From Calditrichia bacterium (lineage in GTDB: Bacteria > Calditrichota > Calditrichia > RBG-13-44-9 > J075), in the NCBI GenBank assembly GCA_028284905.1, contig JANQQU010000062.1, positions 1 through 64,000 on the forward strand: 64,000 bases of DNA, in the 5' to 3' direction. The translations under genes were made by a program, and so were the position numbers. Every line of letters starts with the position of its first letter. Within the stretch, counting starts at the first letter, position 1. Below are positions 49,353 to 64,000 of this stretch, piece by piece. Below the pieces are notes generated by a model. It made no database searches, was not told the DNA's origin, and saw only the letters and a program-made list of their open reading frames with translations.

Positions 49353-50231
49353 TCAGATGCTGCTTTTGTCGCTGTCCCGATGTAATTCGTGGATAATCAC
49401 ATCATTTAATTCGTTGTGGAAACGATTGCGATGTCGCTCTTTTTTTTTGAAGAAATTGAAATTGCCATTGGAGTGTTGCCAGTGCATACCATGGCTGTTC
49501 TCTAGTTCTATGGTTACGCTTTCTTTTCTGCCTTTACGGATATACTCAACTTTTACCTCGTCACCATCATCATATTCGGCAAGAAGATACATCAGCTCCT
49601 CGGTGTCCGGTACCAGGTCTTCATCGAGTTTAACGATGACGTCTCCGGCCTTGAGGCCGGCATCTTCTGCTGGCGTGTCTTCATTAACCTTTAGAACCAG
49701 GACGCCTTCATTGTCTGCCCCGGGAAAATATTCACCAAGATCATCATCGAGATCCTGGATTTGCACACCCAGCTGCGCTCTGTTTATTAATGACACAAAT
49801 GAACCGCCGCTACCAAAAGCCATCTGGTTGCGCCTTTTGCGGCCCATTTCTACTGCTAATTCTCTTTCTTTGCCACGTCGCACCACTTTGATTTTGATTT
49901 CCGACCGAGGCGCCGTATTGCGAACCATTACAACAAAATCGTCTGCCTTCTCGACTGACTTCCCATCGAATCTTACGATGACATCATCTTCACGCAAACC
50001 GGCATCATCTGCCGGGCTGTTGTGAAAAACCTGGGTAACCAGCAAGCCAGTGCGGTTGCCAATTTCATATTCGTCGCTCATAGACGGTGTCATCTCTTCG
50101 ATGCTAACCCCAAGGTAGCCTTTCTTCGGGGATGCCTGTACATCCCGGCTTTGGCAGGAGAGAAATGCCGCAATTACAGCAAACATTAAGGTCATTCTAA
50201 AAAAGTAAACGGGGGTAGATTTTTGTTTCAT
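49353..50231 (-). CDS. two-PDZ-domain lipoprotein without protease domain
   Basis: This 292-residue protein has a signal peptide with lipobox AFLSC and two PDZ domains (about 38-130 and 150-245). Each has a GLLVTQVFHNSPADDAGLREDDVIV-type carboxylate-binding loop (second copy GVLVLKV...AEDAGLKAGDVIV). A His/Arg/Lys-rich tail follows. It looks like the PDZ portion of DegQ/HtrA proteins, but there is no trypsin-like domain. It may bind protein C-termini in the periplasm, perhaps as a stress sensor. It follows an ECF sigma/anti-sigma pair on the same strand, 130 bases after the anti-sigma gene, so a role in that envelope-stress circuit is a reasonable inference. Confidence 0.87.
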   Translation of the reverse strand: MKQKSTPVYFFRMTLMFAVIAAFLSCQSRDVQASPKKGYLGVSIEEMTPSMSDEYEIGNRTGLLVTQVFHNSPADDAGLREDDVIVRFDGKSVEKADDFVVMVRNTAPRSEIKIKVVRRGKERELAVEMGRKRRNQMAFGSGGSFVSLINRAQLGVQIQDLDDDLGEYFPGADNEGVLVLKVNEDTPAEDAGLKAGDVIVKLDEDLVPDTEELMYLLAEYDDGDEVKVEYIRKGRKESVTIELENSHGMHWQHSNGNFNFFKKKERHRNRFHNELNDVIIHELHRDSDKSSI

Positions 50232-50361
50232 GTGAATCCTCCAGGGATTTTTGTTTTTCTCTTTTCTTCTTATGATTGTTACTTTTTCGAAAAAGTTTTA
50301 AGTGCTGCAATTTTTATGAAAATTGTTGATGTGAATCGACCTTCGCAATTCCTGAAGGCAT

Positions 50362-51366
50362 CTATTTATAATCGCTGACACGCACTTTCTTTAGTAGCTC
50401 CTGCATGTCAATTTTGCCATGTTTGAAAGTATCTATATCTTTTTTGTTCAGTTCGATAATGAATCCGTTTTTTGCTTCCTTTTGTACTTCTGCATCAACA
50501 GCGATTACGATAGATTCTTCCGGTGCTAGGAGTTTAAAAGTGTTTTCATTGGTGTGAACAATGTTTAAAACGGCACTTTTGAATTCTTTCACATGATTGT
50601 TGTAGTGGTTGTGAGTGTCGTGGTTGCGGGCAGAGTCAAAGAATTCCACATTCTTATGCTTATTTACTTTCTCGAGTATCCGTACCGCTTCCGTATCGCG
50701 AAATTCTTTGTCTGCTTCTGTGTTCACCAAAAAGATCATTCCCTTTCCGGTAAGATAGACGCCTCTGGTTTTCCCACTTTGGGCAAAGCGCTGCTGGTTT
50801 TTTTGTACACACTCTGTGTTGATCAGATTTTCAATGGCATTCACGTTCTCGGTGATCGCCAATCGCTTTTTAACCGCCTCTGCCTGCGTTGGTGTGGTAA
50901 ATTTATTTTCAAAAGTCAGTTGACTCGCAGAGTCGTCAAGGATCGCCGGTGTGGATTTTCGAAGATCGTTTCTTTCATTCGGAAGCATTTTTTCGACAGG
51001 CTCATCATTGCTTACAATATTTTTTTGCGATGAATCCAGCCAAAAATACCGGGCAAGCGTCATTAACATAAATCCCAATAAAATGCTCGCTGCGAATAGG
51101 CCGGCCATTCTAAAAGCACTGTGCCGATTCGGAAAACCCAATACAGTCTTTCCACTAATGTCGCCTTCATTAACGAAAGTTAAGTTTAGATTAACATCCT
51201 CTTCCTGCCAGGTAGCGAGTATGTCCGTTGCAGACTGTAGCGATTCCAGTTCTGTCCGGCAATCTGCGCAGGTATTGATGTGTGCTTCCAGCGCAGCCAT
51301 TTCACCCTCAGGCATTTCCCGATAGAGAAATCCGATTAATTGCGCTTTGCTGATTTTACACTTCAT
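50362..51366 (-). CDS. membrane anti-sigma factor with zinc-finger (ZAS) domain
   Basis: This protein of about 334 residues has an N-terminal anti-sigma domain with the H-x3-C-x2-C motif HINTCADCRTEL. One transmembrane helix (about FRMAGLFAASILLGFMLMTL) and a large extracytoplasmic domain of unknown fold follow. The C-terminal part is rich in Asn/His/Lys and may be the sensory region. It should hold the cognate ECF sigma factor inactive until an envelope signal releases it. The ATG at 51366 lies inside the 3' end of the sigma gene (11-base overlap), so translation is coupled. The PDZ lipoprotein gene lies downstream. Confidence 0.88.
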   Translation of the reverse strand: MKCKISKAQLIGFLYREMPEGEMAALEAHINTCADCRTELESLQSATDILATWQEEDVNLNLTFVNEGDISGKTVLGFPNRHSAFRMAGLFAASILLGFMLMTLARYFWLDSSQKNIVSNDEPVEKMLPNERNDLRKSTPAILDDSASQLTFENKFTTPTQAEAVKKRLAITENVNAIENLINTECVQKNQQRFAQSGKTRGVYLTGKGMIFLVNTEADKEFRDTEAVRILEKVNKHKNVEFFDSARNHDTHNHYNNHVKEFKSAVLNIVHTNENTFKLLAPEESIVIAVDAEVQKEAKNGFIIELNKKDIDTFKHGKIDMQELLKKVRVSDYK

Positions 51367-51976
51367 AGCTGATTTTCTCCCTGTCGATGTTCCATTCATC
51401 GAAAATTCTTTTCAATGCACTTAGCCCATAATACATCCGGGATTTTGCTGTGTTTACCGAAATGTTCAGCACTGCTGCTATTTCGGTAAATTTTAATCCC
51501 TGGTATTCCTTCATGATAACAACAACCCGCTGTTCTTCCGGGATCGCCTGTAGCGCTTTCCCAAGAAGCGATTTAACATTTGCTTGTTGAGCAGCCATTT
51601 CCGGGTCGTTATGCAAGTTCTTTTCCATTACCGGTTCTTTGATTAAAGTTTGTTGCGACGGTTCAACCAGGCTAAGAGAATAAGCCGTCCGACGCTTCCT
51701 TTTGCGTAACTCATCTTTGCAGACATTTACTGCGATTTGATAAATCCATGCTGAGAATCGCTCCACATCCCGCAAGTTTGAAACACTTCTGTAAACCCGG
51801 ATAAAGACGTTTTGACAAATATCTTTCGCTTCTTCCCGGTTTCCCATATAGCGTAAAACAAAATTGTAGATTGGTTTTTCCCAGCGGGCAACCAGCCGGT
51901 TAAATGCCGCGAGATCCCCGCCCTTGAAACAGTCAATTAGTTGCGCGTCCGTCATTCCTTCGTCCCATCTAGACAA
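51356..51976 (-). CDS. ECF-family RNA polymerase sigma factor
   Basis: This protein of up to 206 residues has sigma region 2 (FNRLVARWEKPIYNFVLRYMGNREEAKDICQNVFIRVYRSV), which binds core polymerase and the -10 element, and region 4 (IPEEQRVVVIMKEYQGLKFTEIAAVLNISVNTAKSRMYYGL), which has the -35-binding helix-turn-helix. It is RpoE-like in size. The start is uncertain: a TTG at 51976, or the ATG at 51955 (MTDAQLIDCFKGGD), which has AAGGA immediately before it. It overlaps the anti-sigma gene, the usual arrangement for a co-regulated pair, and probably autoregulates the operon. Confidence 0.93.
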   Translation of the reverse strand: MSRWDEGMTDAQLIDCFKGGDLAAFNRLVARWEKPIYNFVLRYMGNREEAKDICQNVFIRVYRSVSNLRDVERFSAWIYQIAVNVCKDELRKRKRRTAYSLSLVEPSQQTLIKEPVMEKNLHNDPEMAAQQANVKSLLGKALQAIPEEQRVVVIMKEYQGLKFTEIAAVLNISVNTAKSRMYYGLSALKRIFDEWNIDREKISYEV

Positions 51977-52270
51977 TTGCCCGGAATCAACTCTTGTATC
52001 CGGTATGCAATTCTTGTTCTTCCCTTCCTTTTGTCTCTTAAGACGCCCGTGTTTTTCAGAAAGTTTTAACTACTTTAATTTTTTAGAAAAAATATCTCAT
52101 AACGCTTGAAATGCAAGCAATTCAGGAATGATATGTGAAATGCAATATACCCTTGTAAGGCGCAAATCTTTCCAAGGGGATAACCGTAAGATAGTTGTTA
52201 AATGTTTATAGTAGGGAATTCGCTAAAGAAGTTTTGATACTTACTGGCCAAATTATTGAAGGAGATGAGA

Positions 52271-55048
52271 ATGAAGCACCATTTAATCTACAAATTGCTA
52301 TTCTGGTTGATGGCGGGAAGCTATTTGTTGTTCGCCAGTCCCGGTGAGAATGATCGGGATATCGATATTGCTTATGAGAAATTTGTTCTGGATAACGGTC
52401 TTACTTTAATCGTGCATGAAGACCGGAAAGCGCCGATTGTCGCTGTAAATTTATGGTATCATGTCGGTTCCAAAAACGAGAAGCCCGGTAAGAGTGGTTT
52501 TGCCCATTTGTTTGAACATTTGATGTTCAATGGCAGTGAACATTTCAACCAGGATTATTTCGAAATGACTGAACGCATTGGTGCAACAGACATCAATGGC
52601 ACTACGAACAATGACCGAACCAACTATTTTCAAAACGTGCCGACTTCTGCATTGGACATTATTCTTTGGCTGGAATCCGACCGGATGGGGCACTTGCTTG
52701 GTGTTGTGACCGAGGAAAAGCTTGACATTCAAAGAGGGGTTGTACAGAATGAAAAGCGCCAATACGAGAACCAGCCGTATGGTATTGCCTACGAAATGAC
52801 GACCTTTAGCACCTGGCCGAAGCATCATCCTTATTCCTGGACGATCATCGGCTCCATGGATGATTTAAATGCTGCCAGTATGGAAGATGTGCAGGATTGG
52901 TTCAAAACCTACTATGGCGCGGCGAATGCGGTAATGGTTGTTGCCGGTGATATTTCCCCCAAAGACGCCCTTGAAAAAGTTAAGAATTATTTTGGACATA
53001 TTCCTTCCGGTCCGCCTGTTGCCCGGCACAGTAAATGGGTGCCTCAGTTGGATGGAGAACAACGGCAAATTGCCGAGGACCGGGTTTCGGCCAGCAGGAT
53101 TTATAAAGTCTGGAATGTGCCGGAATGGGGCAATCAGGAACTGGCATATTTGAAAGTCGCCGAAGATATTCTCGGGGGCGGAAAAACCGCCCGACTGAAC
53201 AAGCGTTTGGTTTATGATGATCAAACTGCCTCCGGCGTTTCTGTTTATACAGATGTTCGGGAAATCGCCAGCCAGTTTGCGATTGAAGTAACTGCCAAGC
53301 CCGGACAAGATCTTGACGCGATTGAAAAAGCGATTGATGAAGAGCTGGCGCGATTCCTCGCCGAAGGACCGACGGAGAAAGAGCTTCAGCAGATGAAAAC
53401 GTTGTACCGTGCTGGCTTTGTGCGGGGTATTGAGCGCATTGGTGGTTTCGGTGGAAAATCCGATATCCTCGCAATGAGCGAAACCTATGGCGGTAGCCCC
53501 GATGCTTATAAGAAATCCATGCAGTGGATTGCAGATGCCAGTGCCGAGCAGGTGAAAGCGGCAGCAGCCAAATGGCTGAATGAGAATCGTTATGTTTTAG
53601 AAATACATCCTTTCCCGGAGTATAAAACCAGCGAACCGGGCATTGAGCGTATTGCTGATCAACCGCCGGCAGAGGGAGATTATCCGGATGTAAAGTTCCC
53701 GGAAATCCAGCGAGCGACGCTGTCGAATGGCTTAAAAGTAGTGCTTGCTGAACGGAGCAGTGTCCCTATTGTAGATTTTAGCCTGCAGTTGGACGCCGGC
53801 TACGCTGCCGATCAATTCGGTATTCCCGGCACAGCAAAAATGACAATGAGCATGCTGGACGAAGGCACTAAGAAGAAGAGTGCCCTGGAGATAAGTGAAG
53901 CGTTGTCGCTGCTCGGTGCAAATTTGGGAACCGGTGCTAACCTGGACATGAGTTACGTAAATCTTTCGGCGCTAAAGAGCAACCTGGAACCTTCACTGGA
54001 TATTTTTGCGGATGTTATCCTCAATCCGGCTTTTCCGGAAAAAGATTTGGAGCGTTTGCGTAAACAGCGTCTTGCCGGCATTCAGCAGGAAAAATCATCG
54101 CCTGTGTCCATGGCGCTGCGGGTCTTGCCGAAATATATCTATGGCGAAGGCCATGCTTACAGCAATCCATTGACCGGTTCCGGAGACGAAGCGTCCAACA
54201 AGTCGTTGCGCCGTCAGGATCTGGAAAAGTTCCACAATACCTGGTTTAAGCCGAATAATGCCACCATGGTGGTTACCGGTGACATCGATCTGAAGACTAC
54301 GGTTGCTTTACTGGAAGATCGTTTTAAAAAATGGAAAGAGGGCACTGTCCCGACGAAGAATATCGGCGTGGTTCAACCTAAGGATAATTCAATTGTCCTG
54401 ATCATGGATAAACCTGGCGCACTGCAGTCATTAATCCTTTCCGGACAAATCGCCCCGCCGAAAGCGAATGATCAGGAAATTGCCATTGAAGCGATGAACA
54501 ATGTCGTTGGCGGACAATTTACCTCTCGAATGAACATGAACTTACGTGAAGACAAACACTGGGCTTATGGCGCCTATACTTTCGTTTATGATGCAAAAGG
54601 GCAGCGCCCGTTTATGGTTTATGCGCCGGTGCAGACAGACAAAACTGCGCCTTCACTGCAGGAGTTGAGCAAAGAACTGACCGACTTTCTCGGGCAGCGC
54701 CCAGCCACGGCGGACGAGCTGGAAAAGGTGCAAAAAACCATGACACTGGCACTGCCGGGTGTTTGGGAAACCAATGCCGCTGTTAGTGGCTCACTGAAAG
54801 AGATGATCCGTTTCGGATATGCAGATGATTACTTTCAGACCTACGCCAGTAATGTCAACGGATTAGACCTTGCGCAAATCAAGCGTGCAGCAGAAACGGT
54901 GATTACGCCAGACAAGATGGTATGGCTGATTGTCGGCGACCGCGAGAAGATTCTCGACGAGGTGAAAGCGCTAAACCTTGGCAAAATTCACCTTGTCGAT
55001 GCTGATGGCAATCTTTTGGATGGCGAGGAAGATTTAACGAAGCGTTAA
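52271..55048 (+). CDS. M16-family zinc metallopeptidase, two-domain, exported
   Basis: This protein of about 925 residues has a signal peptide (KLLFWLMAGSYLLFA) and two homologous M16 halves. The N-terminal half has the inverted zinc motif HLFEH (His79, Glu82, His83) and the third ligand in VVQNEKRQ (Glu161). The C-terminal half (after about 480) retains the fold but lacks HxxEH and contributes the R/Y-type substrate pocket. Such pitrilysin-like enzymes degrade short peptides in the periplasm. The ATG at 52271 is six bases after AAGGAG. It is divergent from the sigma operon, so the spacer may hold a target promoter of that sigma factor. Confidence 0.94.
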   Translation: MKHHLIYKLLFWLMAGSYLLFASPGENDRDIDIAYEKFVLDNGLTLIVHEDRKAPIVAVNLWYHVGSKNEKPGKSGFAHLFEHLMFNGSEHFNQDYFEMTERIGATDINGTTNNDRTNYFQNVPTSALDIILWLESDRMGHLLGVVTEEKLDIQRGVVQNEKRQYENQPYGIAYEMTTFSTWPKHHPYSWTIIGSMDDLNAASMEDVQDWFKTYYGAANAVMVVAGDISPKDALEKVKNYFGHIPSGPPVARHSKWVPQLDGEQRQIAEDRVSASRIYKVWNVPEWGNQELAYLKVAEDILGGGKTARLNKRLVYDDQTASGVSVYTDVREIASQFAIEVTAKPGQDLDAIEKAIDEELARFLAEGPTEKELQQMKTLYRAGFVRGIERIGGFGGKSDILAMSETYGGSPDAYKKSMQWIADASAEQVKAAAAKWLNENRYVLEIHPFPEYKTSEPGIERIADQPPAEGDYPDVKFPEIQRATLSNGLKVVLAERSSVPIVDFSLQLDAGYAADQFGIPGTAKMTMSMLDEGTKKKSALEISEALSLLGANLGTGANLDMSYVNLSALKSNLEPSLDIFADVILNPAFPEKDLERLRKQRLAGIQQEKSSPVSMALRVLPKYIYGEGHAYSNPLTGSGDEASNKSLRRQDLEKFHNTWFKPNNATMVVTGDIDLKTTVALLEDRFKKWKEGTVPTKNIGVVQPKDNSIVLIMDKPGALQSLILSGQIAPPKANDQEIAIEAMNNVVGGQFTSRMNMNLREDKHWAYGAYTFVYDAKGQRPFMVYAPVQTDKTAPSLQELSKELTDFLGQRPATADELEKVQKTMTLALPGVWETNAAVSGSLKEMIRFGYADDYFQTYASNVNGLDLAQIKRAAETVITPDKMVWLIVGDREKILDEVKALNLGKIHLVDADGNLLDGEEDLTKR

Positions 55049-55188: not shown

Positions 55189-56271
55189 ATGGCAAAAACC
55201 CTGCTAATGATTGGCACACAAAAAGGTGTTTTCTTCCTGCATTCTGATGAAAAGCGCGAATCATGGTCTTTGGAAGGTCCTATCCTGAAAGGCTGGAAGA
55301 TACAGGATGTTCAACTGGATCAACGTAGCAAGGCGCGGATGTATGCAGCCGTAGGGCATTTTGTCTATGGCCAGACAATTCAGATCTCCGATGACCTCGG
55401 AAAAACCTGGCAGCAGGTCGAACGTGGACCGCGCTATGCAGAGGATGCAGGTAGCGAACTGAAGGATGTTTGGTGTGTGGTGCCTGGTCGCGCAAGTGAA
55501 CCTGATACTGTTTATGCCGGCGTTGCAGAAGCGGGGCTTTTTGTAAGTCATGACCGCGGTTTAAGCTGGAGCGAAATGACCGGCGTTTCCCAGCATCTCA
55601 GCCGGGAAGAATGGATTGGCGGCCTCGGAGGACTTTGTTGCCATACAATTATTCCGCACCCGGACAATCCCCAACGCCTTTGGGTAGCGATCTCTGCAGT
55701 TGGTGTACTTCGCTCGGACGACGGGGGTGAAACTTTCCATGTTAAAAATGATGGATTGATTAAGGTCATAGAAGGGAAAACTCACAAGGACATTGGCTCT
55801 TGTGTACACAGGATGGTAATCGACCCACAAAACCCCGATCGTTTATTCCAGCAAAATCACCGCGGTGTTTATCGAAGTGACGACGGCGGGGATAGCTGGC
55901 AGACGATTGAATCCGGCTTGCCGGGCACATTCGGTTTTCCAATCGTTGTGAATCCGCAGCAACCGGACACCCTCTTTACCATTCCCCAGGAAAGTGATGA
56001 GTTTCGTATGGCAAAGGACGGCGTTCTCTCCGTTTATCGCACTACCGATGGAGGTGCTTCCTGGTCGCCCAGTCGAAAAGGCTTACCGGACAATTGCTAT
56101 GTGGGCGTATTGCGACAGGCGATGACAGTCGACAGCTATCCGGATTGCGGTGTTTACTTTGGCACGTCCGGAGGGCAAATTTATTATAGTCGTAACAATG
56201 GTGAGTCCTGGGAGACAATGCCTTGCAATTTACCGCGAATTTCCAGTTTGTCTGTTGCAATTATTGAATAG
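55189..56271 (+). CDS. BNR/Asp-box beta-propeller protein (sialidase/sortilin-like fold)
   Basis: This 360-residue protein has repeated Asp-box (BNR) motifs of the S-x-D-x-G-x-T/S-W type: SDDLGKTW, SHDRGLSW, SDDGGETF, SDDGGDSW, TDGGASW and RNNGESW. They indicate a six- or seven-bladed propeller. There is no signal peptide, so it is probably cytosolic, unlike true sialidases. The motif alone does not imply glycosidase activity. The start MAKTLLMIGTQKGVFFL follows AAAAGGAGG. It is ten bases upstream of a MoaD/ThiS-like gene, and the close pairing suggests a shared function. Confidence 0.86.
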   Translation: MAKTLLMIGTQKGVFFLHSDEKRESWSLEGPILKGWKIQDVQLDQRSKARMYAAVGHFVYGQTIQISDDLGKTWQQVERGPRYAEDAGSELKDVWCVVPGRASEPDTVYAGVAEAGLFVSHDRGLSWSEMTGVSQHLSREEWIGGLGGLCCHTIIPHPDNPQRLWVAISAVGVLRSDDGGETFHVKNDGLIKVIEGKTHKDIGSCVHRMVIDPQNPDRLFQQNHRGVYRSDDGGDSWQTIESGLPGTFGFPIVVNPQQPDTLFTIPQESDEFRMAKDGVLSVYRTTDGGASWSPSRKGLPDNCYVGVLRQAMTVDSYPDCGVYFGTSGGQIYYSRNNGESWETMPCNLPRISSLSVAIIE

Positions 56272-56281
56272 GGGAGAGCGC

Positions 56282-56560
56282 ATGCCTGAGTTACCCGTAC
56301 ATATTCCCGGCCTGCTGCGCAACTGCACCGACAATCACGGAACGGTAACAGTGTCCGGAGGAACGTTACAAGGGTGTATTGATGATTTGCTCCATCGCTA
56401 CCCCTTGCTTAAAGTGCACCTGTTTACCGAACAGGGCGCGCAGCGGGAGCATGTCTTGTTTTATTACAATGGCGAGAATACCCGTTGGCTGGATGATTTA
56501 AACATCCCGGTCAAACAAGGAGATGAGATTACGGTTCTGCAAGCAGTGTCCGGGGGCTAA
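56282..56560 (+). CDS. MoaD/ThiS-family sulfur-carrier-like protein
   Basis: This 92-residue ubiquitin-fold protein ends in the Gly-Gly motif (VLQAVSGG), which MoaD/ThiS proteins need for adenylation and thiocarboxylation. The interior LDDLNIPVKQGDEITVLQAVSGG matches the family. It could donate sulfur in molybdopterin, thiamin or amino-acid synthesis. No moaE, thiF or moeB gene is nearby, and the neighbour is a BNR-propeller protein, so the pathway is open. The ATG at 56282 follows GGGGAGAG. Its 3' end overlaps the convergent ABC-permease gene by four bases. Confidence 0.85.
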   Translation: MPELPVHIPGLLRNCTDNHGTVTVSGGTLQGCIDDLLHRYPLLKVHLFTEQGAQREHVLFYYNGENTRWLDDLNIPVKQGDEITVLQAVSGG

Positions 56561-57270
56561 ATAAACTTCTCCCGCCGTTGCAGACGAAAAAGAGCAGCCA
56601 GTATCGCTAAGATGGTTGCGACAACCAAATAGAGACGATTATAAAATATCGTTTCCTGCCAGATCACGTAGTTGTATTCCCGGGGCATATCGTAGGGATT
56701 CAAAAAAACACTCCAAACCGTATCTTCCCAAATCAGGCTGGTAATCCAGACAACAAACATTACCAGCACCATCATCGCGGCGGTGCCGTTGCCACTGCGG
56801 ATCAATGTGGAAAACATAAATCCCAGCGCGCCAACAAAAGCGATCGGGTACATTAGTTCTCCAGCCATTTCGAAGACTTCCACCCGGGCAAACACGACAA
56901 TGGACAACAAACACATCAGTACCAGAATGATATAAACGAGCACAAAAGTGAGCACAAAGCGCACTAGCCAAACTTTGTAGCGGTAATCCGGAATGCCAAA
57001 AAGTAGCTCAAGGGTTCGATTGTCTGCATCGTTTTGGATGCCATACACGCTCGGGTAAAATATCAGGAGAATGCCGGGCAGCAGCAAGAGATAGAAGGCA
57101 TCCTCTTCCGTTGGATATTGACTGGGGTCGAACAAATCCACTACAGCAATAAAGAGGAAAAAAAGCAGGGCGCTTAACAAAAAGTAGATGAATTTGTTCG
57201 CGAAAATAATTTTCAAATTATATCGGACTGCTTGATACAGCAGATATAGTTTACTGTTTAGGCTGCTCAT
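56557..57270 (-). CDS. ABC-2 type permease, partner of the RND-ABC fusion
   Basis: This 237-residue inner-membrane protein has six predicted transmembrane segments in the ABC-2 exporter pattern. The long loop after the second helix contains the QNDADNRTLELLFGIPDYRYKVWLVRF coupling segment seen in gliding/NosY-like permeases. It starts within the last 20 bases of the RND-ABC gene in another frame, so expression is coupled. This makes it the natural membrane partner of the ABC ATPase domain fused to the RND pump. Transported substrate unknown. Confidence 0.85.
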   Translation of the reverse strand: MSSLNSKLYLLYQAVRYNLKIIFANKFIYFLLSALLFFLFIAVVDLFDPSQYPTEEDAFYLLLLPGILLIFYPSVYGIQNDADNRTLELLFGIPDYRYKVWLVRFVLTFVLVYIILVLMCLLSIVVFARVEVFEMAGELMYPIAFVGALGFMFSTLIRSGNGTAAMMVLVMFVVWITSLIWEDTVWSVFLNPYDMPREYNYVIWQETIFYNRLYLVVATILAILAALFRLQRREKFI

Positions 57271-60200
57271 CGTGACGCTTTCCGTTTTTCTTCTCGCTTA
57301 GAAGCCAGAGATAGGCATCTTCTAAAGTTGGCGTAACTTGTTCTGCTGCTGCAACCGGCGGTACCGGCGCCAGACATCTTAACTTGATTTTGTCATCCGC
57401 TTTGCTATGGTGAACGATGTTATACGATTCTCTGGCTGCTTCAAAATCATTCGCCTCAATTAGGAACTGCCAGACTTTGCCGCGGGCAAAATCAGCCATC
57501 TCTTGCGGACGACCGAGGTAGCGCACCTGCCCTTTATTCATTACAGCAACGCGATCGCATGAACTGGCTATATCTTCAATAACGTGGGTAGAGAAAATAA
57601 CAATCCGTTCCCGGCTCAGCTCAACCAGTAAATTACGGAAGCGGATACGCTCTCGTGGATCAAGACCGGCAGTCGGTTCATCCACGACCAGTATTCGCGG
57701 CAGGTGCAGCAGCGTTTGGGCAATACCTACACGCTGTTTCATACCACCGGAAAACGAGCCAATTTTTTCATGCTGTTTTTCCTCCAGATGAACCGCGGAG
57801 AGTACGTAGGCAATGCGCTCCAGCCTGCTCTCCCGTTCGGTCAGCCCTTTCAGAATAGCTTGATAGTTAAGGAATTCGAACGCACTCATATTTTCATATG
57901 TGCCAAAATCCTGGGGAAGATATCCAATCAACCCCTGCAATTCTTCACGCTTTTCCTTTACATCAAATTCATTCATTCGAATAGAACCATAGGTCTGATC
58001 GAGAATGCCGCAGATTGTTCGCATTAAAGTGGTTTTTCCAGCACCATTGGGCCCAAGGAGACCAAACATGCCATTCCCGATTTCCAGCGAGACACCATTC
58101 AATGCAGGGAAAGGCACTTTCTTCTTGCCAATAACCGGCACGGACTGCACCAGGCGATAAAACATCTTTCGAATGCGGGAGAATCGCCCACTGATTCTGT
58201 TAATGTCAACCTGTTTCTGATGCAAGCGATTTGAGGTTGAATAGATGATCAAACCAAAGTACCAGAGGAAAGCCACGATCGACAACATTGTTATGTTGTC
58301 CCACTTGTCCATGAAAATGATCAGAAAAACAAACGGCATTCCCCACAACAGTAATTTGTACGCGGGAATTTTGCGTATCCATCCCAACAAGCGCCCATCA
58401 CCTTTTTCCCGCAAAGGTGCCAGTTCCCGGTAAAGGTGCAGGGTGTAAAAGTAAAATGGATGGGCGAGGACGAACATCCAGAAGCCACTCTTGAGATAGA
58501 AAAAAACAAAGTAGGCGAAAAATCCCCAGAGCATAAAATGCCAGCTTTTGTGGAGCAGGTCCGACCAACGTTCAAAAAGGAAGTGCTTTCCCTCGCGTTC
58601 CTGCATGCGGTCATATTTGCGCCACTCGCGGGTAAACCGACCGGGATAATCGTAAATTTTATGCAGATTTTTGATGGAGATCGTTATCGAATCATTCGGG
58701 TCGATTATTCGACTGGAGGCCTTGCGCAAGCTGTTTAGCACAAAGAAAGTGACTGCCGGAATAACCAGGAGCAACACAAAGAAGTTGATAAATTTCCAGA
58801 CATTGCTGTCAATATTATAATAAATCAGAAAGCTACCGGCAGCCAGTGCGGCGATTTGTAGTAAACGCACAGGCAGGGACAAGCTCGCGAACCAGCTTGT
58901 CAGGCTTTCCAGGCCAGAATATACCGTCGGTATGAGCACCAGCGTAAAAACCGTGCTCATTATCAGTCCCCCAATGACGGTAATTGCAAAGGGTGCGGAA
59001 AGCTGAGTAACATATTCGACCTTTCCCATTGCCAGAGGCATCAGCGCTACGATGGTTGTGATTGCTGTAATTAGGATCGGGCGAAGCCGCGCCTGCCCGG
59101 CGGTAAGCAGCGCTCGTTGAAAACGGAATCCCCGGCGTCGCAGCTGGCCGGCATAATCGATAAGAATAATGCCATTGTTGACGACAATCCCCAACAGAAT
59201 GAGCATACCAATCAATACATTAATATTTAGTAATGCATAGCCGGTAACGAGAATTGCAATCAGTGAACCTATCGCTGCCAACGGAATGGTAAACATGATA
59301 ATCAGCGGATTGAGCAGAGACTCAAAAACAGATGCCAGAATCATATAAACGAGAATGAAGGCAACGGCAAAGGTAAAGAGGAATTCTGCCCAAACGTCGC
59401 TCATCGCATCCCCGGCGTGGCTTACTTCCAGCGCGATGCCGTCAGGGATTTCCATGATCGATATTAGCTGATCCACTTCATCCTGGGCAAGTTCTTCCGC
59501 CCGAAAATCGTCGCGAACTTCCTGCTCAAAGCGATAAGATACTTCCACTTGCCGCTCCTGATTAAGGCGGCTAACCCGGGCATTTCCCTCGCTGTAAGCA
59601 ATGTCACTAATCAAACTCAGGGGCATTTGTCCGCCACCTTCTGTTGGGATTGGCAGACTGCGAAGGTCATCTACGTCGCGTTCTTCATAGCTTTCGTTTT
59701 TAATCTGGATATCATATTCATTTAATCCGTCCCGAAATTTGACGCCTGCGCCGGTTTCCGGTTGAAAAGTATTCAGCTCGGAGCGGATCGTCGCTGGAGA
59801 AATTTGGAATTCACTCAGTAATGTTTCGTTCATGTCCAGATGTAATTCCGGGCGATTTGAGGCTTCATTTACCCAGGCCCAATCAACCGTTGCCAGGCCG
59901 GTTAGCTGCTGTACAATGTCATCAGCAAAAGAGCGCATGAGTTGCAGATCGTCTCCTTTAACCGTGATCTTCTCACTATTGCTGCCGAGCCCCATTAAAC
60001 CGCCAAAGGCATCATCGCCGAATCCGGCGCCACCGCGATTACCGCCACCAAAGCGGCGACTGCTGTTCGGTGGATCAAAGCTGACATCTGCAGCCCGGTA
60101 ATCATTAAGACGAGCGTCCAGTTCCGACTTTATGTCGGCAATGTTACGTGATTTTATCTCCTGGTAATTCTCTTTCAGTTGCAGCGTCAGAATAGCTTCA

Positions 60201-61996
60201 TCCTCAAAGACCTGACTGAGAATTTCCTTAATCTCCTCGATGTCATTTATACCAGCTTCCAACTCCCGCACGGCAATGTCAGTCGTTTCCAGGGAAGCAC
60301 CGGCAGCCATCGTAATGTATAGTGGAATACTGTCAACCGCCGCTTCCTCTTCGTTGAACAAGTTTTGGCCGAGCGTTAACAGTAAGCTGGAGAAAAAGAT
60401 CAGCAGTGTTATAACAACGGTGCGAATTGGGAAGCGCATGGTCGTTTTAAGGATGAGCGTATAAAGTTGCATCATCCGGCTGGTGCTGGCAAAGGTGTAG
60501 AATGGTTTTAGATTGAGTTGTTGCCGGGTCATAAAATAATGGGTAACCATGGGAATCAGCAGCAGCGCTACCGCCAGCGAAACCAGTAAGGTTGAAATGA
60601 TTGAAACGCCAATTTGATAGGCGACAATCGTAACCTGAAGGTTGGTGGAGAAGATGAAGGGAATGAAGACACAAATCGTTGTTAGTGTTGCTGAAACAAT
60701 CGATCGCCAAATTTCCCGTACGCCTTCAGTCGCTGCCATGAGTGGGTCTGCATTGCGCTGCATCAGGCGATAGATGTTCTCGAGAACAACGACGCTATTA
60801 TCCAGCAGCATGCCGACAGCCAGTGCCATCCCAACCAGCGTCAAGCTGTTTATGGAAATATCCGCCATGTAAAACAGATTAAAAGCTGTGAAAATTGATA
60901 TCGGCAGAGAGAGGGCAATGACAAATATTAGCCTGAGGTTTTCCAGGAAAAACCAAAGGATGAGAATCGCTAAAATCCCACCAATGATTGCCAGGCCTAC
61001 CACTAAATCAATATTCTTCTGCAAATCACTGGCGGTGTCGTTCTGAATGACAATTTCGACACCTTCGTCGGCAAGCTCGGAGTTCAAGCGATCAATAACC
61101 GGATAAACGTTTTCTGCCAAATCAAGAATGTTCGCTTCGGAATCACGAATAAGATCCAGCGTTACCGATTCTTTCCCATTGATACGACTGTAAGATTCTG
61201 GCTTTTTTGCACCAACTCTTACTTCGGCAACGTCTTTTAAAAGCACTGGCCCGGCAGGATCGACAACGATATTCTCCAGATCCCAAACGCTGGTATATTC
61301 TCCGGAAACATTGATAAAAAACCGTTTGCTGTTCTCATCCAGGTAACCAACATAGGTTTTGTATTGATTGTAACGGGAGATGATTCCGGCAATCCGGGAT
61401 GGCGTGATATCGAAAGCTTCCGTCGCTTCATTGTTGACGACAACCTCCACGGATCGCTCCCGTCCACCGCTGGTTTGCACACTGGCAATGCCGTCCATCG
61501 ATTCAAAATCCGGGACAACTTCCATGTCGGATATGTAGCGCAAATAATCAACATCATCCGTGCCGCGCACTTGAAGGGTCATAAAACGGTTAACAAGCTG
61601 CTCCGTATCCACTTTGCTTGCGGCAACAAAGTATTCTTCCGGCAGGGAAGACTTCATCGCATCAAGCTTTTCCTGTAAACGGAGATACGCATACTTCATA
61701 TTCGTATTTTGCGAATATGATACGGTAATTACGCCCTGGCGTCGATTCGCGAAGGAACGGATTTCCTCAATGCCTTCGAGGGTACCCACCGCTCCTTCAA
61801 TAGGCACGATGACGTCTCTCTCAATAAATTTGGGATCCGTATCTCGCGCACTGTTTGCCATAACGATCAAATAGGGGAGGGTCGCATCCGGCATTAGCTG
61901 GACCGGCAAGTTCCGGTAAGAGATATAACCGAGCAGCGTTAAGCCAATGAAAAGCATGCTGACGGTAACTTTTCGTTTGATAACAAATTCCAGCAT
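57251..61996 (-). CDS. RND efflux pump fused to an ABC-transporter ATPase domain
   Basis: This is one uninterrupted 1581-residue protein. Residues 1 to about 1030 are a complete RND (AcrB/MdtB-like) permease: first helix RKVTVSMLFIGLTLLGY, periplasmic porter loops, helix 4 GMALAVGMLLDNSVVVLENIY (Asp-Asn instead of Asp-Asp), and the second half to VFTLVLIPTVYSGL. Two more hydrophobic helices follow. ISIKNLHKIYDYPG (about 1105) resembles the first strand of an ABC ATPase. Next come about 190 residues with further hydrophobic helices, then a full ABC core: LLGPNGAGKTT (Lys1321), SFSGGMKQR (Ser1416), ILVVDEPTAGLDP (Glu1440) and FSTHVIED. RND pumps use proton motive force, so an attached ATPase is exceptional. 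It lies between an RND gene and an ABC-2 permease gene. Confidence 0.93.
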   Translation of the reverse strand: MLEFVIKRKVTVSMLFIGLTLLGYISYRNLPVQLMPDATLPYLIVMANSARDTDPKFIERDVIVPIEGAVGTLEGIEEIRSFANRRQGVITVSYSQNTNMKYAYLRLQEKLDAMKSSLPEEYFVAASKVDTEQLVNRFMTLQVRGTDDVDYLRYISDMEVVPDFESMDGIASVQTSGGRERSVEVVVNNEATEAFDITPSRIAGIISRYNQYKTYVGYLDENSKRFFINVSGEYTSVWDLENIVVDPAGPVLLKDVAEVRVGAKKPESYSRINGKESVTLDLIRDSEANILDLAENVYPVIDRLNSELADEGVEIVIQNDTASDLQKNIDLVVGLAIIGGILAILILWFFLENLRLIFVIALSLPISIFTAFNLFYMADISINSLTLVGMALAVGMLLDNSVVVLENIYRLMQRNADPLMAATEGVREIWRSIVSATLTTICVFIPFIFSTNLQVTIVAYQIGVSIISTLLVSLAVALLLIPMVTHYFMTRQQLNLKPFYTFASTSRMMQLYTLILKTTMRFPIRTVVITLLIFFSSLLLTLGQNLFNEEEAAVDSIPLYITMAAGASLETTDIAVRELEAGINDIEEIKEILSQVFEDEAILTLQLKENYQEIKSRNIADIKSELDARLNDYRAADVSFDPPNSSRRFGGGNRGGAGFGDDAFGGLMGLGSNSEKITVKGDDLQLMRSFADDIVQQLTGLATVDWAWVNEASNRPELHLDMNETLLSEFQISPATIRSELNTFQPETGAGVKFRDGLNEYDIQIKNESYEERDVDDLRSLPIPTEGGGQMPLSLISDIAYSEGNARVSRLNQERQVEVSYRFEQEVRDDFRAEELAQDEVDQLISIMEIPDGIALEVSHAGDAMSDVWAEFLFTFAVAFILVYMILASVFESLLNPLIIMFTIPLAAIGSLIAILVTGYALLNINVLIGMLILLGIVVNNGIILIDYAGQLRRRGFRFQRALLTAGQARLRPILITAITTIVALMPLAMGKVEYVTQLSAPFAITVIGGLIMSTVFTLVLIPTVYSGLESLTSWFASLSLPVRLLQIAALAAGSFLIYYNIDSNVWKFINFFVLLLVIPAVTFFVLNSLRKASSRIIDPNDSITISIKNLHKIYDYPGRFTREWRKYDRMQEREGKHFLFERWSDLLHKSWHFMLWGFFAYFVFFYLKSGFWMFVLAHPFYFYTLHLYRELAPLREKGDGRLLGWIRKIPAYKLLLWGMPFVFLIIFMDKWDNITMLSIVAFLWYFGLIIYSTSNRLHQKQVDINRISGRFSRIRKMFYRLVQSVPVIGKKKVPFPALNGVSLEIGNGMFGLLGPNGAGKTTLMRTICGILDQTYGSIRMNEFDVKEKREELQGLIGYLPQDFGTYENMSAFEFLNYQAILKGLTERESRLERIAYVLSAVHLEEKQHEKIGSFSGGMKQRVGIAQTLLHLPRILVVDEPTAGLDPRERIRFRNLLVELSRERIVIFSTHVIEDIASSCDRVAVMNKGQVRYLGRPQEMADFARGKVWQFLIEANDFEAARESYNIVHHSKADDKIKLRCLAPVPPVAAAEQVTPTLEDAYLWLLSEKKNGKRHDEQPKQ

Positions 61997-62000
61997 AAGC

Positions 62001-64000
62001 CTAACTCCGGTCGACTAGCGGATTAGCGGATGAGTTGCTAAAGCGGTCCAGCACATAATAAGCGCATGGTATAACCACCAGAGTTAGAAGGGTAGATGTC
62101 ACCAGGCCACCGATAACCGCCAAAGCCATCGGCGCGCGCAGGGAGGCGCTTTCACCGAACCCGAATGTGAGCGGTAGCAGTGCGAGAATGGTCGTCAAAC
62201 TGGTCATGACAATCGGGCGGATACGTTGTTGCCCAGCAGCAACGATCGCTTCCCGAAGCGGCGTTCCCTGCCATTTCAAGCGATTGATCGCATCGACGAG
62301 AATAATGGAATCGTTTACAGCAATCCCCACCAACATGATGATCCCGATATAGGCCATGATATTCAACGGCAATCCCATAAAAAAGAAAATCAGAATGGCG
62401 CCCACCGCTGCGAGCGGAATGGTGAGGATTATTGTAAAAGGGTGCACTAATGATTCAAACTGTGAGGCCAGCACCATATAAATGAGAATAATTGATAGCA
62501 GCAACGCAAATTTAAGGCTATCGAATGAATCCCGTCGCTTTTCCTCTTCACCACCAATCTCGAAGCGATAGTTGGGGGGAAAAGGGATATCTGCCAGCGC
62601 GCTACGGATCTCCTGAACTGTTTGATCCAATGGTTTTTTGCCTTTCAGCTGGATATTCACTTTTCCAATGCGCGTCTGGTTCTTACGATGTATTTCTTTC
62701 GGTGCAATCATTTGTCTGATTACCGCGATGTCTTCCAGGCGAATCTCACCCATTGCAGTTTCCACAGGTAAATTGCCAATGTCGCGAACATTGGGAGGCG
62801 GCACTTTTACGCTGATGTCGCGCAATTCGCCGCGGTCTTCCCAGTTGCCTGCTTCCCGTCCGTCGATCTGGTCTTTCAACTGAGCACTGACGTCGCTCAT
62901 CGTCGCATCGAAGATGCCGGCCCGAATCCGGTCCACAAATACATTGATTTCCGGACGCCCTTCATCAAAGCTGCTTTCCCAGCTGAGAATATCCGAAACC
63001 ACGCCAAGTCGGGATGCAATGCTATCTGTCAGCGTTTGCAGCTGCAGCAAATCCTCACCCTTAACTTCGATTGTCAACGGCGCTTCTTCCGTGCCGAGTG
63101 TCGTTTGCAAGGCCGACTCATCCCGAATGAATTCCGCTTGTAAATCCGGGTGTCCTTCGAAGAGTGAGTTGAGCTGAGCGATAATTTCATCGATACTACG
63201 CTTGGGAGGCGATTTTAAAAAGAACAGCAGTGAAGCGGTGTTTTGTCCTTCATCTACACTGCCTTGTTCTTCCAGTAAACCAGTCGAGGGGCCGGATTGA
63301 ACATAGATGCTTTCCAGTTCATCGGCCAGCAACTCCTGAGACAATGTTTCAATTGCATGGATGGCGCGGTCGGTATGAGCGAGAGATGCACCTTCTTCCA
63401 GGCGAATATTTACCCGAAACTGGTTGCTCTCTGCCTTGGGAATAAACTCGCTACCGACGACTGGGATTAGCAGCCATCCGAGGACAACCAGCAATGCACC
63501 GGTGGCAAGAATGATCAAACGGCGATCCAGAATGCGGGTGAGGAATTTGCTGTAGCCATCAAAGTGAATTGCATTGCTGGTCTGCTGGTCCGTTTTCAGG
63601 AAGCGATGACTGAGCATCGGGATAAACAGGATAGCAACGCCTAGTGAAGACAACAGCGAAAAAGCAACGGTCCAGGCCTGCTCCTTGAAAAGCTCCCCAG
63701 CAGCGCCTTGCAGATAGACGATTGGCAGGAAAACAACGATTGTTGTTAGCGTAGAGGCAGTAATCGCACCAGCCACCTGGGCGGTACCATCAATCGCAGC
63801 GTCCTTTAGAGTAGCGCCGTTCTCCAGATGACGAAAGATGTTTTCCATGACAACAATCGCATTATCCACCAGCATGCCGGCGCCCAGCGCCAGTCCGCCA
63901 AGGGTCATAATGTTCAGTGTAAGATCATTGAAATACATCAGATTGAAAGTCGCAACAATCGAAATTGGTATGGCGATGCTCATGACAAAGGTGGCGCCGA
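62001..64000 (-). CDS. RND efflux permease, C-terminal two-thirds (cut by window edge)
   Basis: At least 665 residues of an inner-membrane RND permease are visible; the frame stays open to the right edge, so the N-terminal helices and first porter part lie outside. Visible are GGLALGAGMLVDNAIVVMENIFRHLENG (helix 4, one Asp followed by Asn), AITASTLTTIVVFLPIVYL, the second periplasmic loop, and the C-terminal GFGESASLRAPMALAVIGGLVTSTLLTLVVIPCAYYVL. It stops four bases before the RND-ABC fusion gene. Two adjacent RND permeases recall MdtB/MdtC heteromultimers. A periplasmic adaptor and an outer-membrane channel would be expected upstream, to the right of the window. Confidence 0.93.
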   Translation of the reverse strand, partial: GATFVMSIAIPISIVATFNLMYFNDLTLNIMTLGGLALGAGMLVDNAIVVMENIFRHLENGATLKDAAIDGTAQVAGAITASTLTTIVVFLPIVYLQGAAGELFKEQAWTVAFSLLSSLGVAILFIPMLSHRFLKTDQQTSNAIHFDGYSKFLTRILDRRLIILATGALLVVLGWLLIPVVGSEFIPKAESNQFRVNIRLEEGASLAHTDRAIHAIETLSQELLADELESIYVQSGPSTGLLEEQGSVDEGQNTASLLFFLKSPPKRSIDEIIAQLNSLFEGHPDLQAEFIRDESALQTTLGTEEAPLTIEVKGEDLLQLQTLTDSIASRLGVVSDILSWESSFDEGRPEINVFVDRIRAGIFDATMSDVSAQLKDQIDGREAGNWEDRGELRDISVKVPPPNVRDIGNLPVETAMGEIRLEDIAVIRQMIAPKEIHRKNQTRIGKVNIQLKGKKPLDQTVQEIRSALADIPFPPNYRFEIGGEEEKRRDSFDSLKFALLLSIILIYMVLASQFESLVHPFTIILTIPLAAVGAILIFFFMGLPLNIMAYIGIIMLVGIAVNDSIILVDAINRLKWQGTPLREAIVAAGQQRIRPIVMTSLTTILALLPLTFGFGESASLRAPMALAVIGGLVTSTLLTLVVIPCAYYVLDRFSNSSANPLVDRS

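Follow-up and report, generated by a model that had tools for sequence, protein, structure and literature searches.

The window analysed here, a 64,000-nucleotide stretch of a Calditrichia bacterium genome (contig JANQQU010000062.1, positions 1 to 64,000), carries on its minus strand a single ATG-to-TAA open reading frame of 1581 codons in which an RND permease is followed by an ABC ATPase (Table 1); the plus-strand reading of 57251-61996 is broken by stops throughout. Residues 1-1027 match positions 1-1018 of the 1021 in the Pfam profile ACR_tran, that is, a full-length RND permease, and residues 1299-1443 cover the whole of the Pfam profile ABC_tran (E 9e-28). In addition to Walker A, signature and Walker B motifs, the fused ATPase carries a Q-loop, a D-loop and an H-loop, and in all 48 homologues compared (48/48) its motifs either do not vary or show conservative changes at non-catalytic positions only. 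Foldseek and profile searches place the ATPase core with the ABC-2/ABCA-type ATPases (TM_1403, TM0544, NosF and ABCA1/3/4/7); the best-scoring ABC family for this segment in NCBIfam is GldA, at 179.8 bits, far below the cut-off of 402.6. The frame is unbroken across the junction; from about codon 1000 to codon 1330 the two other frames contain 13 and 10 stops. GC at third positions is alike along the gene (0.47-0.61). A full RND permease and a complete ABC-2-type ATPase are joined in one protein, and the fusion is real.

Table 1. Fusion gene, its parts and the neighbouring cassette genes (positions refer to the window unless a contig is named; TM, transmembrane; AF2, AlphaFold2)
Feature	Position	Strand	Residues or length	Basis or remark
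RND::ABC fusion gene	57251..61996	(-)	1581 aa	
RND (HAE1-like, ACR_tran) permease domain	58907..61996	(-)	1-1030	ACR_tran E 1.5e-170; relay-site counts
Predicted extra transmembrane hairpin after RND TM12	58715..58876	(-)	~1041-1094	hydropathy; AF2 helices H14-34, H38-67
Putative first ATPase strand with A-loop (K-x-Y), detached from core	58646..58690	(-)	~1103-1117	AF2 strand E79-88; profile windows
Predicted four-helix membrane insert between ATPase strands 1 and 2	58127..58645	(-)	~1118-1290	hydropathy; AF2 helices
ABC ATPase core	57254..58111	(-)	1296-1581	ABC_tran; Foldseek to TM_1403, NosF and ABCA ATPase domains
Walker A, GPNGAGKTT	58028..58054	(-)	1315-1323	motif alignment
ABC signature, FSGGMKQ (SGGM at 1416)	57734..57754	(-)	1415-1421	motif alignment
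Walker B, ILVVDEP	57674..57694	(-)	1435-1441	motif alignment
Small ABC-2 permease, 6 TM and elbow helix	56557..57270	(-)	237 aa	AF2; Foldseek; Pfam matches of orthologues
Partner RND permease	62001..64000, on to contig position 65111	(-)	1036 aa	four bases from the fusion gene, upstream
Adaptor	contig C25 65112-66173, outside window	(-)		cassette gene
TolC-like protein	contig C25 66207-67718, outside window	(-)		cassette gene
ABC-2 permease/pseudo-M1/golvesin protein	contig C25 67705-71070, outside window	(-)	1121 aa	cassette gene
Stand-alone ABC ATPase	contig C25 71067-71948, outside window	(-)		cassette gene

A scan of GTDB representative genomes yielded 47 complete fusion homologues (34-56% identical), each a single frame that spans both domains; they come from Bacteroidota, KSB1/Calditrichota, Krumholzibacteriota and others. 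The carriers comprise isolates (Bacteroides faecis MAJ27, Parabacteroides faecis, Prolixibacter bellariivorans, Butyricimonas synergistica, Marinifilum fragile and Agaribacillus aureus) as well as draft genomes of KSB1 and Krumholzibacteriota, and copies cut by contig ends occur in Latescibacterota and others. In the phylum of the window, seven further genomes contain a full-length fusion (50-55% identity), and an eighth contains it in two pieces that both end at contig edges. A profile specific to the linker between the two domains matched 9 of 40 genomes of this phylum, the window's own genome included; in an even draw over the wider phylum the fusion was rare (4/296 genomes, with the source genome counted among the four). 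Among Bacteroidales, the fusion-specific linker is present in 26 of 198 genomes, three of which have short fusion frames, all stopping at contig ends, and the linker occurs once per genome in the 21 genomes sampled for copy number. A plasmid search returned ordinary RNDs only, none of them reaching 80% query coverage, and a viral structure library returned generic ABC matches only. Separate RND and ABC genes, as a genuine split would give, were not found: all 47 complete homologues are fused, and so is a divergent subfamily of about 27% identity.

These data bear on the question of whether an assembly or frame error has made one gene of two. The otherwise intact fusion gene carries a single in-frame stop, real or a sequencing error, in each of two draft genomes (G028, on contig C16, the same contig as locus L075, and G031, at C28/L016), as such an error might leave behind, but the same junction is open in the 47 complete homologues, which come from independent assemblies and include isolates such as B. 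faecis MAJ27 and P. bellariivorans; an artefact is therefore exceedingly improbable and was discarded. An earlier note on this DNA, made from its letters, had described a complete RND permease and a complete ABC core in one chain with Walker A, signature and Walker B intact, and all of this is borne out by the two full profile matches, the fused homologues and the conservation of the motifs. Its position (57251-61996) and length (1581 codons) for the frame also hold. It had missed that the gene runs on the minus strand, that the ATPase domain is apparently interrupted by a four-helix membrane insert, and that a second RND and a cassette of seven genes go with the fusion. The frameshift or assembly error that it had wished to see excluded was looked for at the junction and none was found, the open frame being shared by homologues and the short frames ending at contig edges; nor are the homologues always two genes, since they are fused in the 47 complete relatives and in 26 of 198 Bacteroidales.

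The last RND helix is followed by a hairpin, the A-loop strand, a basic stretch, four transmembrane helices (residues ~1151-1260) and then the ATPase core. In an AlphaFold2 model of residues 1028-1581 (mean pLDDT 85.3, pTM 0.72), model residues 79-88 form a strand and the stretch from there to the ATPase core is wholly helical; because the intervening segment is all helical by DSSP, this strand would be able to pair only with strands of the ATPase core. The strand was examined further with a profile of the stand-alone ATPases of the cassette, each 18-residue window of the linker being set before the core and the gains in score compared. The A-loop strand was the best-scoring window in 42 of 48 sequences (+8.6 bits, compared with a mean of +1.2 over all windows), and its Lys and Tyr are invariant (48/48). 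It sits about 180 residues upstream of the remaining ATPase domain, displaced by the insert. It is most likely, from the model and the profile comparison, that the fused ATPase domain is discontinuous, with a four-helix membrane domain placed between its strands 1 and 2. Since the number of helices in the insert is even, both parts of the ATPase would lie on the cytoplasmic side. The insert probably keeps the ATPase domain beside its permease. Searches of the PDB gave no match to the insert and linker, and those of Pfam no consistent one.

What links the two halves is a conserved membrane domain and not a flexible tether, which speaks against the view that the fusion merely sets stoichiometry and co-localisation while exporter and pump act independently on related substrates. 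Fusion of genes from co-operonic partners is common, and each half of the protein retains its own complete motifs, as would be expected if the two worked apart. However, a split version is lacking from the complete homologues and even from the divergent subfamily, and such an arrangement is rather improbable.

On the RND side, the equivalents of AcrB D407, R971 and T978 are invariant in the fused RNDs (48/48) and in the partner RNDs. The positions of AcrB D408 and K940 are mostly Asn in both RNDs of the cassette; because most of the ordinary RNDs compared share this residue, it would not by itself mean that ion coupling has been lost. The second, stand-alone ATPase of the cassette retains every catalytic motif. 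Neither engine of the fusion looks dead, judging from the catalytic motifs kept by both ATPases and the relay residues kept by both RNDs. In a quick tree, the fused RNDs and the partner RNDs each form one clade (support 100 each); the two are only about 30% identical and do not group as sisters there, and two different RND genes are always found together in the cassettes. By sequence, the fused RND matches MdtB best among PDB entries, and MdtB2C provides a precedent for mixed RND trimers (PMC4462101, PMC7015380). The source genome also contains another RND frame (L007, G000:C41:15544-18687), of 1461 aa, which exceeds the usual length by about 400 residues; its visible C-terminal end carries no ABC motif.

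The fusion gene belongs to a cassette whose order is ABC ATPase, ABC-2 permease with a pseudo-peptidase domain, TolC, adaptor, second RND, RND::ABC and small ABC-2 permease, and all seven genes occur in the same order and on the same strand at 39 loci. The 1121-aa protein comprises an N-terminal ABC-2 domain, a region with weak similarity to M1 peptidases and a golvesin C-terminal domain; the M1-like domain of the large permease lacks HExxH in 41 of 42 cases. The pairwise distances of the cassette components correlate (r ~0.8-0.95), with the exception of the ATPase set, in which a few misassigned rows depress the values. The upstream flanks of the cassette are unrelated among loci. In the divergent subfamily, which is represented by two copies in a single Bacteroidales genome (G471, loci L139 and L140), the RND domains are about 27% identical, and all seven parts and the split ATPase are kept, with TolC placed last. 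At four loci (L052, L058, L070 and L074) the large ABC-2/pseudo-M1 gene is split into at least two frames, while the genes for the RND, the fusion and the small permease are unbroken. A KSB1 draft genome of 2.5 Mb (G060), which may be incomplete, has no large permease. Elsewhere in the window, by eye, 55189-56560 encodes a beta-propeller protein of the BNR/sortilin type and, overlapping it, a small MoaD/ThiS-like protein that ends in Gly-Gly, and 49353-51976 (minus) encodes three proteins in succession, one with a PDZ domain, a probable anti-sigma factor whose N-terminus is zinc-finger-like, and an ECF sigma factor; a gene for a double-domain M16 peptidase (52256-55048), on the opposite strand, adjoins the cassette region.

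The start of the small permease gene overlaps the end of the fusion gene by 20 bases. Its AlphaFold2 model (pLDDT 90.5) comprises an elbow helix and six transmembrane helices, for which Foldseek listed PmtCD at the top and CcmB, NosY and ABCG lower, with E-values of at least 0.03 and probabilities mostly of 0.8-1.0; seven of 49 orthologues match ABC2_membrane_3. The gene carries no ATPase of its own, lies directly downstream of the fusion in nearly every locus and, in the KSB1 genome G059, has moved out of the cassette to a place with no ATPase nearby, still in one copy. The modelled fold and this position make the small permease a candidate cognate ABC-2 permease of the fused ATPase. Of the three options raised at the outset for the ATPase, service to a neighbouring permease in trans fits best, because a permease of ABC-2 fold follows the fusion nearly everywhere and one copy is kept even where it has been relocated. 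The conserved ABC-2 permeases, in offering the ATPase an ordinary partner, also count against a directly dual-energised RND pump, in which ATP hydrolysis would drive the RND cycle itself, alone or along with the ion gradient. Such a pump might be suspected from the presence of both engines, with conserved motifs, in one chain, but the symmetry of an RND trimer does not match that of an ABC dimer, and we regard this as very unlikely.

We lean towards a model in which the cassette forms a seven-protein, two-stage envelope transporter, the fused ATPase powering one or both ABC-2 permeases in trans and anchoring this ATP-driven stage to an ion-driven RND-TolC pump. The two RND proteins would form a mixed trimer, like MdtB2C, which would dock via the adaptor onto TolC and be powered by the ion gradient. 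The fused ATPase would work with the adjacent small ABC-2 permease, and the large permease and second ATPase would probably join these two to give a heterodimeric ABC-2 exporter. In an ATP-driven first step, the substrate would be taken out of the cytoplasm or the inner membrane and presented to the periplasmic side of the RND; in the second step, the RND-TolC part would expel it. The fusion would pin the ATP-driven stage to the ion-driven stage at a fixed ratio: a trimer of one fused and two partner chains would contribute a single fused ATPase, in keeping with one heterodimeric ABC unit, and the alternative ratio of two fused chains per trimer would suit a homodimeric ABC unit with the small permease. 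It is tempting to guess, from the families involved, that the substrate is an envelope-active hydrophobic compound or a lipid; a guess from the locus flanks was dropped, as the flanking genes are not conserved. The conservation of the fusion and of the cassette, including that in the divergent subfamily with another gene order, is consistent with this model, and the lack of a large permease in G060 would speak against an obligate heterodimer.

The same proteins may also be viewed as an RND pump gated by ATP, in which the fused ATPase would switch or assemble the RND-adaptor-TolC conduit, much as MacB passes a conformational change to MacA-TolC, and the ABC-2 proteins would be structural or sensing components that move no substrate. 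Movement could be transmitted by way of the membrane hairpin and the insert, which join the ATPase directly to the C-terminus of the RND, and the extracytoplasmic pseudo-peptidase and golvesin domain of the large permease could act periplasmically. A pure gate, however, would need neither of the two dedicated ABC-2 permeases, which are conserved and one of which has an ordinary six-transmembrane exporter fold, and we consider gating alone unlikely.

RND pumps are driven by ion gradients and ABC transporters by ATP; the two are textbook-separate superfamilies, and a tripartite pump is classified by the one it contains. In a review of such pumps, the RND systems and the ABC systems form distinct types (PMC8277102). 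MdtABC-TolC and MuxABC-OpmB resemble the cassette in that two different RND permeases are encoded together with an adaptor and a TolC-like channel, but contain neither an ATPase domain nor ABC permeases. The ABC-2 (type V) exporters PmtCD, NosDFY, TarGH and ABCA/ABCG have the ATPase fold and motifs and the 6-TM permease fold in common with it; by contrast, the ATPase domain here is covalently attached to an RND permease and appears to be split by a four-helix membrane insert. MacAB-TolC resembles the proposed machine in that an ATP-driven inner membrane protein works with an adaptor and TolC across the envelope. MacB, however, combines its ATPase with a 4-TM permease and a periplasmic domain of its own, a place taken here by an RND permease, and a Pfam scan found no FtsX or MacB_PCD domain in the fusion, which is hence not assigned to the MacB family. 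The upstream ATPase and large permease of the cassette resemble the GldA-type ATPases found with large ABC-2/M1-like permeases in Bacteroidota, and the source genome contains two stand-alone pairs of a GldA-like ATPase and a permease of ~1200 aa that resemble the first two cassette genes (L010, C33:80000-95000, and L011, C25:141000-156000); no neighbours of RND length were seen beside these pairs.

Three published systems were considered as relatives and set aside. The efflux/ABC locus PG1663-PG1667 of Porphyromonas gingivalis is annotated as individual genes for an ABC ATPase, permeases, an MFP and an OMF, and neither an RND permease nor a fusion is mentioned for it; Vibrio VarABCDEF is no RND hybrid but a tripartite pump of the ABC kind, in which VarDEF acts with VarA and VarC; and the Bacteroides RND and ABC loci of a chemical screen of gut bacteria are separate, with no mention of a fusion. 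No published RND::ABC fusion was found in the open-licence PMC literature, in agreement with the statement of the earlier note that no characterised example was known; the fusion proteins themselves have already been deposited in public genomes.

The membrane insert is the one part of the cassette outside the known families, and the combination of parts matches no system found. The fusion is a hybrid of two known kinds, and mechanical coupling between ATP and the ion gradient, if proven, would make it a new category. A new class of envelope transporter, with an ABC-2 exporter ATPase that is interrupted by membrane segments and grafted on an RND subunit, and with ATP hydrolysis mechanically coupled to the RND cycle instead of only placed beside it, is a possibility that we put forward tentatively. 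An ATPase domain interrupted by a membrane domain would be a second unusual feature, of structural interest. A conserved protein that is both RND and ABC breaks the sorting of tripartite pumps. Since its carriers include culturable gut bacteria (Bacteroides faecis, Parabacteroides and Butyricimonas), the question of whether one pump can be driven by ATP and an ion gradient in series is directly testable.
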